Assembly: GCA_030729785.1 (NCBI GenBank)
Contig: JANQWS010000090.1
Location: 1 to 64,000 of the forward strand
Direction of reading: 5' to 3'
Source: Algoriphagus sp.
GTDB lineage: Bacteria > Bacteroidota > Bacteroidia > Cytophagales > Cyclobacteriaceae
DNA length: 64,000 nucleotides
Shown one piece after another: positions 6,387 through 50,117 of this stretch. Each line of letters starts with the position of its first letter. Positions within the stretch are counted from its first letter, which is position 1. Position numbers and translations under genes: made by a program. The notes beneath the pieces are model-generated. The model saw only the letters and a program-made list of their open reading frames with translations. It ran no database searches and was not told the origin of the DNA.

Positions 6387-6695
6387 TTATACTTGAGCTG
6401 CCAATTGTTTAATTTTCTTACTGTTTTTAATCTTTTCTACAAATACCTTGGAAGGCTTAAATGCAGGTATGTGATGCTCTTCAATAACTATTGCCGTATT
6501 CTTTGAAATGTTTCGAGCAATTTTCTTTGCTCTTTTTTTGTTGATGAAACTTCCAAATCCTCTGACATAAATGTTTTCTCCATCTGCCATGGAATCTTTC
6601 ACTACCTTGAAAAATGCCTCAACCGCTTGAGTTACATCGTCTTTTTGAATTCCGGTCTTTTCGGAAATTTTAGTAATTACTTCTGCTTTGGTCAC
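6387..6695 (-). CDS. HU-family DNA-binding protein
   Basis: Bends and compacts DNA in the nucleoid. The 102 residues contain the N-terminal helical part ('MTKAEVITKISEKTGIQ'), the 'YVRGFGSFINKKR' strand-turn and a DNA-contacting arm 'RNISKNTAIVIEEHHIPAF' with a proline at the tip region. An extra basic C-terminal tail ('KNSKKIKQLAAQV') extends about ten residues beyond E. coli HU. It is first in the leftward unit HU-TPR-bS22-like-rng and divergent from mutY. HU and IHF cannot be told apart here. Confidence 0.93.
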   Translation of the reverse strand: MTKAEVITKISEKTGIQKDDVTQAVEAFFKVVKDSMADGENIYVRGFGSFINKKRAKKIARNISKNTAIVIEEHHIPAFKPSKVFVEKIKNSKKIKQLAAQV

Positions 6696-20277: not shown

Positions 20278-22056
20278 TTGGCAAAAAATGACTTTATCAC
20301 CCGCCTCCTCATATTTAGATTGAGGCACATGAGTAATCAGACTTTTATCCTGATTCTCAGCGGATGCATTGGTATATTTTCAGGAATTGCTGCCGTCCTT
20401 CTGAAAACAGGGGTACATACGATTCAAAATTTTTTAACAGAAGATTTTTATCCTTCGTATGCCAATTTTATGTACATCCTTTATCCTTTAATTGGAATCA
20501 CAACTGCCTTTTTGCTTGGAAAATACGTATTGAAGGACTTCGGGGGCCATGGAATTCCAGATGTATTGTTTTCCATTTCCAAAAAATCAAGCCTCCTTCC
20601 TCGGGTAAAAATCTTCAGTCGAGTGCTTACTTCCTCCTTCACGGTAGGTTTTGGCGGCTCTGTAGGGCTAGAGGCTCCCATGGTCATGACAGGATCAGCA
20701 ATTGGTTCGAACGTGGGAGCGTTGATGCATTTAAATGCTAAAAAAAGAACCTTACTTATTGGTTGTGGAGCTGCAGGAGCCATTTCTGCAATTTTTGGAG
20801 CCCCTATTGGGGCAGTAATATTTGCTATTGAAGTTATATTGATGGAAATAAGTACCGCAAGCTTTATTCCTTTGCTTATCGCCTCTGTGACTGGTTCACT
20901 TACTTCCATGCTGCTAATTGGGGAAGATTCATTATTCAACTTCAATTTAAAGGATAGTTTTCAGGCAACCCATATGCCCTATTACTTGCTTTTAGGTATT
21001 ATTTCAGGGCTGGTATCACTTTACTTCAGCAAAATGGTGGTGGCAACAGAGCGACTGATGGGAGCTCTAGGAAGTCATTGGATGCGGATTACCTATGGTG
21101 GCGCTTTTTTAGGATTCATGGTCTTTTTGTTTCCTCCGATCTATGGGGAGGGATACCAAACATTGAATGTATTAATTGATGGAAATGCCACTGAAGTTCT
21201 AGAGAAAAGTCTCTTTTTCTCTAGTTTAGGAGAAACTAAAACCCTCCTATTATTCCTAATCGGGATTATTTTATTAAAACCAATTGCTTCAGCAATCACT
21301 ATTGGAGCTGGAGGGAGTGGGGGAATTTTTGCTCCTTCCCTTTTTGTAGGAGGTATTACCGGCTTTGTTTTTGCTTATTCCAATAATCTACTAGGAATTC
21401 ACTTAGACCTACCGATCGCTCATTTTGTATTGGTGGCAATGTGTGGGGTAATGGCAGGGGTTCAGCATTCACCACTATCTGCAATCTTCTTAATTGCAGA
21501 AATCACTGGGGGTTATGAACTATTTGTTCCACTCATGTTTGTCTCAGCCATCTCTTTCATCACAAAAACCTACTTTCAGAAACACAGCGTCTACACTTTG
21601 CAACTTAAAGCCCAAGGCAAATACCTACCAGAAACCAAAGATGAAGAGTTGTTGGATAACATTTCGATCACGCAAGTCATAGAAAAGGATTTATTACCAA
21701 TCCATCCAGATGCCCAGCTTACCGATTTAATTGAACTAGTCAAATTGTCTAAGCGGAATATTTTCCCTGTGGTAGATTCTGCTCAAGTATTGCAAGGAAT
21801 TGTGACTTTGGATGACATTCGTCACATCATGTTTGATGCAGAAAAGCAGAAAATTGTTCGGGTAAAGCAACTCATGCATAGTCCTCCAGAAATCCTATTT
21901 TCTTCAGAAAATATGCAATCTGCAATGGAAAAGTTTGAGCGATCTGGAGCCTGGAATCTTCCCGTAGTGGACAATAATCAGTATTTAGGTTTTGTGTCAA
22001 AAGCCAAAATCTTTAATGCTTATCGAAAAAAATTACAGCGGCAAAAAGAAGATTAA
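20278..22056 (+). CDS. ClC-family chloride channel/transporter with CBS domains
   Basis: A 592-residue membrane protein with about ten membrane helices and two C-terminal CBS domains (about residues 455-585). The anion selectivity motifs are 'FGGHGIPDV', 'GFGGSVGLEAP' (with the gating glutamate) and 'GGSGGIFAPSLF'. At the site of the inner proton glutamate of E. coli ClC (E203) the protein has valine ('FAIEVILME'), so it may be a channel or an uncoupled transporter. The start is a TTG at 20278; the first ATG, 17 codons later, would cut into the conserved N-terminal helix. It follows the peptidase by 45 bases. Confidence 0.93.
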   Translation: MAKNDFITRLLIFRLRHMSNQTFILILSGCIGIFSGIAAVLLKTGVHTIQNFLTEDFYPSYANFMYILYPLIGITTAFLLGKYVLKDFGGHGIPDVLFSISKKSSLLPRVKIFSRVLTSSFTVGFGGSVGLEAPMVMTGSAIGSNVGALMHLNAKKRTLLIGCGAAGAISAIFGAPIGAVIFAIEVILMEISTASFIPLLIASVTGSLTSMLLIGEDSLFNFNLKDSFQATHMPYYLLLGIISGLVSLYFSKMVVATERLMGALGSHWMRITYGGAFLGFMVFLFPPIYGEGYQTLNVLIDGNATEVLEKSLFFSSLGETKTLLLFLIGIILLKPIASAITIGAGGSGGIFAPSLFVGGITGFVFAYSNNLLGIHLDLPIAHFVLVAMCGVMAGVQHSPLSAIFLIAEITGGYELFVPLMFVSAISFITKTYFQKHSVYTLQLKAQGKYLPETKDEELLDNISITQVIEKDLLPIHPDAQLTDLIELVKLSKRNIFPVVDSAQVLQGIVTLDDIRHIMFDAEKQKIVRVKQLMHSPPEILFSSENMQSAMEKFERSGAWNLPVVDNNQYLGFVSKAKIFNAYRKKLQRQKED

Positions 22057-22089
22057 GCACCCATTTAAAATAAAATTTTGTGTTTGAAA

Positions 22090-22247
22090 TTATCCACTTT
22101 TACTAGTGCATTTGAAATTGATAATCATACAGTTAGCAAATATTATCCACAAAATCAGCTAAAAATTAATGTCTTAACTAATTGATTTACAATTTTTTAT
22201 ATATTAATTAATTATGAGTGTGGATAAATAATTGAAATTGTGGATAA
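22090..22247. other. Cluster of four DnaA boxes (candidate oriC or DnaA-binding site)
   Basis: Three perfect consensus boxes are present: TTATCCACA at 22143-22151 and its complement TGTGGATAA at 22219-22227 and 22239-22247. A fourth, TTATCCACT at 22090-22098, has one mismatch. The two left boxes face right and the two right boxes face left. Between them lies about 65 bases of almost pure AT sequence suited to unwinding. Against an origin, the surrounding genes run towards the site, and neither dnaA nor other typical origin neighbours are close. A DnaA-regulated or titration site is the alternative. Confidence 0.45.
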
Positions 22248-22493
22248 ATTTTTCTTGCATTTTTTAACCCTCTTTAATTTCTCATTTAAGGGCATTTTGT
22301 ATGAAATTTATCGAAAGAAAATTAGAAAAAGAGATCCCGTTGTAGATACGATTTCAAATAAAAAAATAAAATAAAATTTGGAAAATGACTTGAAGATTTT
22401 GTGAACACAGAGCAAAAAAAATTAGGAAAATATCCCATCTTGGGCCTGAACTAGGTTTAGTGATAATTTACCCTTTAATATTTTAATTTTTTT

Positions 22494-22578
22494 ATTGTCT
22501 ACTTTTTCAACAGTAACGGGGTGAGGAATAAAATAAGGTTTGTAGTTCAATCCCATGAACTGTGGTCTGTAGGCAGTC
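22494..22578 (-). repeat. Dispersed intergenic repeat, copy C (inverted)
   Basis: Read on the minus strand it gives a CACAG head, 'attgaactacaaaccttat', 'tttattcc' and 'gttgaaaaagtag', the same order as copies A and D. Confidence 0.5.
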
Positions 22579-22651
22579 CTCTATCAACGATTTAACTCCA
22601 ACAATTCAACTAGATTTTACGCACTGGTACGATTGGGGATAATCCTATCAT

Positions 22652-23347
22652 TTATTTTCCAAAGCCCGTGGAAGGAAGGTTACTCATCTGCCTTATGATC
22701 CAAGTTTTCCGGCCCTGAATGTAGGAAGTAGGTCTAGCTGGATTCCAGCGCCTTGGATTGGGCAATACCGCAGCAATCAAGGCTGCCTGCCCCTTAGCAA
22801 GTGTGGAAGCATCCCTATCAAAATAAGTTTGGGAAGCTGCCTGAATTCCATAAATCCCATTTCCCATTTCAATGACATTAAGATACACCTCCATGATCCG
22901 TTCCTTGGACCAAATCAATTCAACCAGCACGGTAAAGTAGGCCTCTAGCCCCTTTCGAACATAGCTCCTAGATGGCCACAAAAACACATTCTTCACGGTC
23001 TGCTGGGTAATTGTACTTGCTCCTTTGATGCGTTTCCCTTTTTTATTGTTTTCCCAAGCTTTTTTCATCGCTTCCATATCAAATCCATGATGATCCATGA
23101 ATTTTTGATCCTCAGCAGCATAGACGGCCTGTGGCGCATGTTTGGACATCTCTGAAATAGAAACCCAGTCCTTTACCAAACGTAATTCTTTGTCAGGATC
23201 GAATCCCTGCTCTACCAACCGAATCACCATCAAGGGGGTAATCGGCACAGGCAAGAACCGGTACAGGATAACCAGCCCAATTGAAAGTCCAAAAAACCAC
23301 AATGTGGACTTCCAAATAAATTTTCCAATCCAGCGAATACCTTTCAT
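22652..23347 (-). CDS. mtgA: Monofunctional biosynthetic peptidoglycan transglycosylase
   Basis: Polymerises lipid II into glycan strands at the inner membrane. The 231-residue protein has one N-terminal membrane segment ('LWFFGLSIGLVILYRFLP') and a GT51 domain. Catalytic glutamates lie in 'AAEDQKFMDHHGFD' and in the 'SKERIMEVYLNVIEMG' motif, with 'GASTITQQTVKNVFL' between them. There is no transpeptidase domain. It starts 9 bases after the stop of the methyltransferase gene and is probably co-transcribed with it. Confidence 0.95.
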   Translation of the reverse strand: MKGIRWIGKFIWKSTLWFFGLSIGLVILYRFLPVPITPLMVIRLVEQGFDPDKELRLVKDWVSISEMSKHAPQAVYAAEDQKFMDHHGFDMEAMKKAWENNKKGKRIKGASTITQQTVKNVFLWPSRSYVRKGLEAYFTVLVELIWSKERIMEVYLNVIEMGNGIYGIQAASQTYFDRDASTLAKGQAALIAAVLPNPRRWNPARPTSYIQGRKTWIIRQMSNLPSTGFGK

Positions 23348-48671: not shown

Positions 48672-50063
48672 TTGCTTAGCTTTTTTAAAGTAAATGACCC
48701 TTTTCGCTTAGTTGGAATTGCAATCTACCTGATTGCATTTAGCGTAATTTCTTGGGTATTTTTTTCATTTCCAAATACCACTCCCATGCTAATCTGGATG
48801 GTCTTGGGTGAACGACTCAGTGAGGGCTATTTTCTTTATGTAGACGTAATTGACGATACAGGACCCTTATCTGCGGGGGTATTTACTGGTTTGCACTTGT
48901 TGTTTGGTCGAAGTGAACTCGCCTACTTTTTTTTAGGTAAGGTACTCACCTTTTTTCAAATCTATTACTGGAATCATACCCTAATAAAATACCGTGTTTT
49001 TGATGAGAACTCCTACTTACCCGCCATTGTACTTGCCGCACTTTTTCATTTTTCATTTGACTTGACCTACCTATCTCCAACCTTATTGGGTAGCACCTTT
49101 TTATTATTGGCATTTGGGCAACTTTTCTCCCATACCGTACTGCAAAAAGAAAGTAATGAATCCACCCTATTGATTGGTATTTATGGAGGGCTTGCTACCG
49201 GCTTCCATTGGAATTTCGTGTTTTTCCTTCCCTTCTTAATCTTCACAGGCCTAGCGATTTCAGGTTTTACCATACGACAGTTATTTCTGTCTATTATGGG
49301 CTTTATAATGCCTATCCTGCTCATTTTGGTATTTTATTTTTGGAACGATGGCCTGATGCAGGCACTGCAAGTTTGGCCGATGGTTTTTACCTATCCCAAC
49401 TATGCTTACCAACCCTATTTGAGCTGGCTTCTACCTGGACTTCTCCCATTATTAATTGCTTTTGCGGGCTTTTTCATCGGTACTTTCTTTAGAGGCGCGA
49501 CCATCAACCAACAAAAGCAGCGTCAACTAATTGTCATTTGGCTAATGTTTTCAGCAGGTTTATTCTTTCTAATAAAAAATACTGCCACCTACCAGCTCGT
49601 TATTTTACTTCCAGGATTAAGCTATTTTATCTGTCATTTTTTTCTTCATTTTAGTTGGAGAATTCTAATTAAACCTGCATTTCTAGGACTGATTTTAATT
49701 TTACCGCTTTGGACAATTACCTATTGGACGTCACGTATACCGGTAGATACTACTTATTTTGTGCAATCAAAAGGGGATCAAGCACCGATGCCCCAGGGCA
49801 GCGTGTTGGTTTTGGAAGAGGATCCCAGTCCTTACTTGGGTAGGCCTTTAGGCGGGCCATTTTTAAACTTTCACTTATCCAAAAGCTACCTCAATCAAGA
49901 AAAATCCTTGTCCCAGAAAACACAAATTTTTGAAATGATTCGAAAACAGCAACCTGAACAAATACTGGATAGGGAGGGACTATTTAGGTCCCTTTTAGAA
50001 GAATTACCTGCCCTTTCTGAATTATACTTGGAAACAAAACCGGGGGTATTTGTGAAAAAATAA
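48672..50063 (+). CDS. Unknown polytopic membrane protein
   Basis: I do not recognise a named family. The 463 residues hold about eleven hydrophobic segments up to residue 350 and a soluble C-terminal domain of about 110 residues ('KGDQAPMPQGSVLVLEED' onward). A loop after the first segment reads 'GERLSEGYFLYVDVIDDTG', with acidic residues near the membrane, as seen in some GT-C glycosyltransferases. The opening 'MLSFFKVNDPFRL' resembles a group of Bacteroidota membrane proteins of unknown role. The start is a TTG at 48672; the next ATG would remove the first helix. Confidence 0.75.
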   Translation: MLSFFKVNDPFRLVGIAIYLIAFSVISWVFFSFPNTTPMLIWMVLGERLSEGYFLYVDVIDDTGPLSAGVFTGLHLLFGRSELAYFFLGKVLTFFQIYYWNHTLIKYRVFDENSYLPAIVLAALFHFSFDLTYLSPTLLGSTFLLLAFGQLFSHTVLQKESNESTLLIGIYGGLATGFHWNFVFFLPFLIFTGLAISGFTIRQLFLSIMGFIMPILLILVFYFWNDGLMQALQVWPMVFTYPNYAYQPYLSWLLPGLLPLLIAFAGFFIGTFFRGATINQQKQRQLIVIWLMFSAGLFFLIKNTATYQLVILLPGLSYFICHFFLHFSWRILIKPAFLGLILILPLWTITYWTSRIPVDTTYFVQSKGDQAPMPQGSVLVLEEDPSPYLGRPLGGPFLNFHLSKSYLNQEKSLSQKTQIFEMIRKQQPEQILDREGLFRSLLEELPALSELYLETKPGVFVKK

Positions 50064-50065
50064 GG

Positions 50066-50117
50066 TTATCCACAAACCCCCCAGCAGCATAAAATCTGTT
50101 TGAATTACTGTGAATAA
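50066..50117. other. Pair of DnaA-box sequences
   Basis: A perfect TTATCCACA lies at 50066-50074 and a one-mismatch TGTGAATAA at 50109-50117, facing each other. They sit between the convergent membrane-protein gene and rpiB. The bases after the second box read 'atcagctaaaaa', the same 12-mer that follows the perfect box at 22143. Confidence 0.4.

Follow-up and report, generated by a model that had tools for sequence, protein, structure and literature searches.

A conserved array of four DnaA boxes near the predicted oriC of Algoriphagus, a probable DnaA control element

DnaA-box clusters outside oriC

Control of DnaA outside oriC is known mainly from E. coli, and box clusters have also been described in B. 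subtilis and Streptomyces (PMC5742627, cited in part here and below). In E. coli, datA is a non-coding cluster of DnaA boxes with an IHF site, located outside oriC and thought to form a loop, and in DARS1 and DARS2 one box is opposed to two others, with DARS2 also using IHF (PMC5742627). In B. subtilis, six box clusters lie outside oriC, and removal of all six advanced initiation (PMC5295017, cited in part). Olivi et al. 2025 reported that boxes are concentrated near oriC in E. coli and Salmonella (PMC12371093, cited in part). Within the open full-text literature, subscription journals being outside this scope, we found no paper title pointing to such an element in Bacteroidota.

Here we describe an array of DnaA boxes in Algoriphagus sp. 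(Cyclobacteriaceae, Cytophagales) that is probably a DnaA control element, non-coding and close to the origin but separate from oriC. The window, that is, the whole analyzed stretch of 64,000 nucleotides, makes up the first 64 kb of contig C90, which is 134,648 bp long and belongs to a draft genome of 96 contigs and 2.57 Mb that is 84% complete. The array has four boxes in a near-fixed geometry around a central palindrome, occurs in single copy throughout the genus and in 40 of the 84 family genera, and lies 67-305 kb from oriC in the genus. On our best reading, it would be akin to datA, DARS, or the B. subtilis clusters, as a titration or regulatory element. Being compact, single-copy, and near-invariant, it is a ready experimental target.

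Like datA, the array is a non-coding box cluster outside oriC, with a putative IHF site recognized by motif alone. Unlike datA, in which the essential boxes point one way (PMC5742627), its box pairs face each other and its centre is a palindrome, as far as the described layout allows comparison; because the one-way feature fails, we did not file the array as datA. It resembles DARS in that box 2 is opposed to boxes 3 and 4, matching box I versus boxes II and III of the described layout, but it is origin-near, and the starts of its opposed boxes are 76-77 bp from each other in the genus. With the B. subtilis clusters it has in common several boxes, probably strong ones judging from their sequence, clustered outside oriC. 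It differs in being one compact array per genome, in contrast to six clusters, and in its IHF-type centre, which the cited part of PMC5295017 does not mention for those clusters. As in the study of Olivi et al. 2025, perfect boxes are enriched near oriC in the complete Algoriphagus chromosome G009: of its 103, at least 48 lie no more than 300 kb away, against about 13 if uniform. The array, by contrast, is a fixed four-box module rather than a diffuse density gradient.

The array and its conservation

Box 1 (22090-22098, plus strand, TTATCCACT) has one mismatch and, as a non-consensus box, is presumably weaker. Box 2 (22143-22151, plus strand, TTATCCACA), box 3 (22219-22227, minus strand), and box 4 (22239-22247, minus strand, 20 bp from box 3) are all perfect. 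The G+C content between boxes 2 and 3 is 14.9%. The surrounding interval (22057-22651, 595 bp, G+C 27.9%) contains no listed ORF of at least 80 aa. The recount at 22090-22247 thus agreed with the initial annotation, which had reported three perfect boxes and one single-mismatch box within 158 bases, arranged as inward-facing pairs around an AT-rich core in a gene-free interval. It had also stated that genes on both sides mostly run towards the interval, and this holds for the immediate neighbours, which are convergent and both end there: a ClC chloride channel gene with CBS domains (20278-22056, plus strand; Pfam PF00654 and PF00571) and mtgA, encoding a monofunctional peptidoglycan transglycosylase (22652-23347, minus strand; Pfam PF00912, and TIGR02070 above its cut-off).

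Degenerate boxes (TTWTNCACA) were not enriched across the window (11 versus 8.9 expected), and the unusual feature is the clustering of boxes, not their window-wide count. None of 60 windows simulated from the window's dinucleotide frequencies had two perfect boxes inside 105 bp. Likewise, none of 4000 intervals simulated from the interval's own frequencies had more than one, compared with the three observed. The draft genome contains 51 perfect boxes, against 21 for a reversed-pattern control, and no other trio is as tight. The boxes of the array are real and far beyond chance.

We searched for the array in the genome collection, whose taxonomic groups are called 'genus' and 'family' here. 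A stricter pattern, which matched 6 of 194 order genomes, fixed variable bases between boxes 3 and 4 and was therefore relaxed for the genus, family, and phylum searches to TTATCCAC, 56-85 bases, TGTGGATAA, 10-13 bases, and GTGGA. With this pattern, 68 of 72 genus genomes gave a single match each, and the reversed control had 0 matches. All 50 high-quality genus genomes matched, and the four misses were 67-83% complete. At the family level, 136 of 390 genomes matched, representing 40 of 84 sampled genera with Algoriphagus itself counted; the other 254 may have diverged forms of the array or none. The phylum sample gave 13 matches in 395 genomes: five in the same family, one at the order level (G045), and seven in one distant genus, in which the flanking bases are different. 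Anchoring on ClC instead of the boxes, we found three perfect boxes with equal spacing past the ClC stop in 27 of 28 genus loci, the window's own included, and the remaining locus ends at a contig edge. Conservation in close relatives, which the initial annotation had proposed to check, was thus strongly confirmed.

The alignment statistics cover 68 sequences from the genus, 4 from the family, and 1 from the order, with identical sequences removed beforehand; loci L060-L065 and L146-L158 were left out, and the order-level L037 was kept separate from the 68 genus sequences. Boxes 2, 3, and 4 were perfect in 68/68 genus sequences, an invariance that is partly selected because the search pattern fixes most of their bases, including all nine of box 3. 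A fairer test comes from the ninth base of box 2, the last three bases of box 4, the whole of box 1, and the spacing inside the allowed range. Box 4 was perfect with its last three bases free in the pattern, the offset between boxes 3 and 4 was 20 bp in all 68, and the start-to-start distance from box 2 to box 3 was 77 bp in 61 and 76 bp in 7. Box 1 read TTATCCAC with T, G, or C as the next base in 61/68 sequences and was perfect in none; it started 52-53 bp before box 2 in 65/68. In the five sequences from outside the genus (L230, L236-L238, and L037; four family and one order), box 4 was TGTGGAAAA in every case and box 1 was recognizable in one.

The alignment also revealed conserved blocks next to the boxes. 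The left block (22064-22080, plus strand), delimited by column conservation over the 68 genus sequences and one order-level sequence, has the consensus TTTAGAATAAAATTTGG, from which the window's own copy, TTTAAAATAAAATTTTG, differs somewhat. An AGTTAGC block stands directly before box 2 (22131-22137, plus strand, alignment consensus), and the right block, TCTTGCATTTTTTAA (22253-22267, plus strand), is conserved above 0.9 in 10 of 15 columns.

The array persists where ClC is lost or reduced. Two genus loci (L214 and L215) have no ClC match, and seven (L220-L226) retain only about the last 66-101 codons, three of them together with roughly 30 to 60 codons from the beginning of the gene. All nine of these loci keep the four boxes at standard spacing, and they do not represent nine independent events because the lineages are related. 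Among the four family loci examined, ClC was beside the array in three; at L236, no ClC was found there. The remnants in L220-L226 often begin near residue 523-525, which could reflect common ancestry or a functional element that extends further.

Matches beyond the family had layouts of their own. In the distant genus of the phylum, the boxes of L232-L235 are arranged much as in the array, in opposed orientation, with TGTGGATAACT; this may be the oriC of that genus or a parallel element. The order-level L231 (G045) is matched by the array pattern on both strands, the matches overlap, and the centre reads CTGTTTTTCAG.

Position relative to the predicted oriC

We drew the skew reading from two complete chromosomes, G009 and G033; G021 was sampled too coarsely, and the skew of G044 is too irregular, to place an origin. 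In G009, the cumulative skew over 4.12-4.47 Mb has its minimum at about 4.390 Mb, and the array is at 4.286 Mb, ~104 kb away; coarse sampling of the whole chromosome agrees with this minimum. In G033, the lowest value is near 607-609 kb and the array is at 455 kb, ~152 kb away. The skew keeps its sign through the array in both chromosomes. In G009, it is -0.040 in the 120 kb on the left-hand side of the array, -0.052 between the array and an intergenic gap linked to mnmG, and +0.032 in the 70 kb beyond. On the window's contig, the mean skew is close to zero in the 22 kb before the array and -0.057 in the 112 kb after it, the reverse of what an origin would give.

The mnmG-linked gap is about 470 bp long in G009 and G033 and lies some 2.6 kb after mnmG (identified by TIGR00136), before a gene of the acyl-CoA-ligase type (FadD homologue). 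The skew turns about 10-12 kb short of it in both. The gap has many DnaA boxes in both complete chromosomes, and in 17/17 genus genomes searched, the 700 bp before the ligase gene contain 5-11 boxes that deviate from the consensus at no more than one position; 0-2 of these are perfect. Pairs of parS-like sites are located about 4.5 kb from the gap in both chromosomes, with one and two mismatches in G009 and none in G033. These observations suggest the gap after mnmG as a candidate for oriC in Algoriphagus, which provides a predicted oriC position for the genus. The candidate is similar to the array in having DnaA boxes and a similar, weaker palindrome. It differs in that its boxes are mostly imperfect, in contrast to the perfect boxes 2-4 of the array, and in its closeness to the skew turn and to parS-like sites. 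A cluster of perfect boxes alone can therefore mislead an origin finder to the wrong place.

The members of each parS-like pair are about 45 bp apart, just before mnmG (4395362/4395407 in G009; 613936/613979 in G033).

In 15 of the 17 genus genomes, the array and the oriC gap are on one contig, and their distances are 67, 67, 69, 76, 83, 92, 111, 113, 115, 119, 154, 164, 233, 287, and 305 kb, with the array on the upstream side of the ligase gene in seven genomes and on its downstream side in the other eight. The other two are G010 and the window's own genome, in which the gap and the array are on separate contigs (in the latter, C18 and C90, respectively). Outside the genus, the distance from the array to the FadD homologue was 1.47 Mb by the short way in G044 (order level), 0.9-1.1 Mb in G754 and G848 of the family, 145 kb in G652, and 91 kb in both G751 and G777. 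These six distances bear little on position because FadD does not mark oriC there, with 0-1 boxes upstream in the six genomes. As a second origin test, rRNA orientation was discarded, with matches in 1/6 and 1/7 genomes.

The central palindrome and a possible role of the array

Between boxes 2 and 3, the letters are variable in the 68 genus sequences apart from a central palindrome (22175-22199, strandless) of the form TAA-N5-TGANNNTCA-N5-TTA, that is, two overlapping inverted IHF-type half sites. The window's own copy, TAACTAATTGATTTACAATTTTTTA, matches at 11 of 12 positions. At least 10 of 12 positions matched in 60/68 genus arrays versus 1.3 expected from shuffles, a score that is partly circular because the template was defined on the same alignment. 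The fairer test, with one listed row per genus, found the palindrome at this threshold in 30 of 39 further genera versus 0.6 expected. The motif WATCARNNNNTTR, which we take to be the IHF consensus, is present in 40/68 genus arrays and in 45/73 over the full set (1.5 expected); with one position freed, it is present in 58/68 genus arrays and in 29/39 other genera (2.1 expected). By this likeness to the consensus, the central palindrome is IHF-like and a candidate site for an HU/IHF-type protein.

A candidate binder is encoded nearby. The only HU/IHF-family gene (PF00216) found in the draft genome is at 6387-6695 on the minus strand, and a PF00216 search gave a single match per genome in 4/4 genomes, 15-17 kb from the array. 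The best named model for the protein was IHF beta, at 67 bits versus a cut-off of 120, and it passed the cut-off of no IHF model; the nearest solved chains were engineered IHF and then HU. Because one PF00216 gene was found, we infer that the protein acts as a homodimer, which suggests a fit to the symmetric palindrome.

A palindrome-like motif also occurs in the oriC gap. In 15 of 17 genus genomes it falls at one and the same column of the oriC alignment, which common descent could explain. It scores 10 or more in 11/17 genomes, compared with 70 of 850 shuffles, and is thus weak.

The initial annotation had raised an unusual placement of oriC. On this reading, DnaA would melt the AT-rich core of the array. 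The boxes do surround a core of 15% G+C, include the tightest trio of perfect boxes in the draft, and are strictly conserved. However, the skew minimum that was to be sought at the array lies ~104 kb (G009) and ~152 kb (G033) from it, with no change of sign at the array, the skew on the window's contig shifts there in the wrong direction, and the mnmG-linked gap has its own oriC-type boxes in 17/17 genomes and parS-like pairs nearby. The skew and the separate gap led us to reject the array as oriC, the least probable of the readings considered here. Scarcely more credible is a site for chromosome organization, in tethering or segregation, that would use DnaA and an HU-like protein without regulating initiation. 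The single copy, the origin-near position on either side, and the survival of rearrangement and neighbour loss would suit such a site, but the parS-like sites are beside mnmG, and none with up to two mismatches was found on the array's own contig.

It is also improbable that the array serves some hidden or neighbouring gene, either as a structured RNA or as a regulatory site, with DnaA as the transcription factor. DnaA does have this second function (PMC5742627), and the blocks conserved next to the boxes might belong to a promoter. Yet the array persists without ClC, and both ClC and mtgA end at the interval, so that a DnaA-controlled gene, the form in which the initial annotation's DnaA-controlled element would be realized, is unlikely. 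As for RNA, the array has no Rfam match, and the possible pairing of boxes 2 and 3 lacks covariation support because both are invariant. Somewhat better placed, though still unlikely, is a DARS-type element that would recharge ADP-DnaA and promote initiation. Its case is that box 2 points against boxes 3 and 4, the relation that box I has to boxes II and III in DARS, and that DARS2 uses an IHF site (PMC5742627). Against it, DARS1 and DARS2 of E. coli lie between oriC and terC, and DARS2 is impaired beside oriC (PMC5742627), whereas the array is origin-near and, in the genus, has the palindrome between boxes 2 and 3, whose starts are separated by 76-77 bp. The suggestion of a DnaA titration site fared better: the array best fits either titration or regulation.

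As an origin-near control element, the array could act as follows. DnaA would bind the three boxes that appear strong from their sequence, and an HU/IHF-type protein, probably a homodimer, would bend the central palindrome. The bend would bring DnaA on boxes 1-2 and DnaA on boxes 3-4 into a single looped complex. As replication reaches the site shortly after initiation, the doubling of the site would trap DnaA or alter its nucleotide state, and premature re-initiation would be discouraged. The complex might merely titrate DnaA, speed up ATP hydrolysis as datA does, or recharge ADP-DnaA as DARS does. We favour a negative role, titrating or inactivating, because the array is origin-near. More tentatively, and with less confidence than in the control element itself, we consider a family-wide DnaA switch of Bacteroidota. 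Its opposed box pairs would flank a palindrome read by an HU/IHF homodimer encoded 15-17 kb away, and the resulting loop would change the nucleotide state of DnaA after each initiation. If this is true, the switch would combine the box order of DARS, a datA-type centre, and an origin-near site, with a bending site in common with oriC.

Further DnaA boxes are present outside the array. At 50051-50117 of the window, three TTWTNCACA matches fall within 67 bp, and the perfect one among them, at 50066, is intergenic. In G033, the stretch 9-49 kb to the right of the array has no perfect box. Contig C90 has eleven further perfect boxes at 66539-114707 (L159-L161), ten within predicted ORFs, and three of the eleven sit in one photolyase-type gene. 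A 47-bp offset between boxes there recurs in a pair of G033, at 558006/558053.
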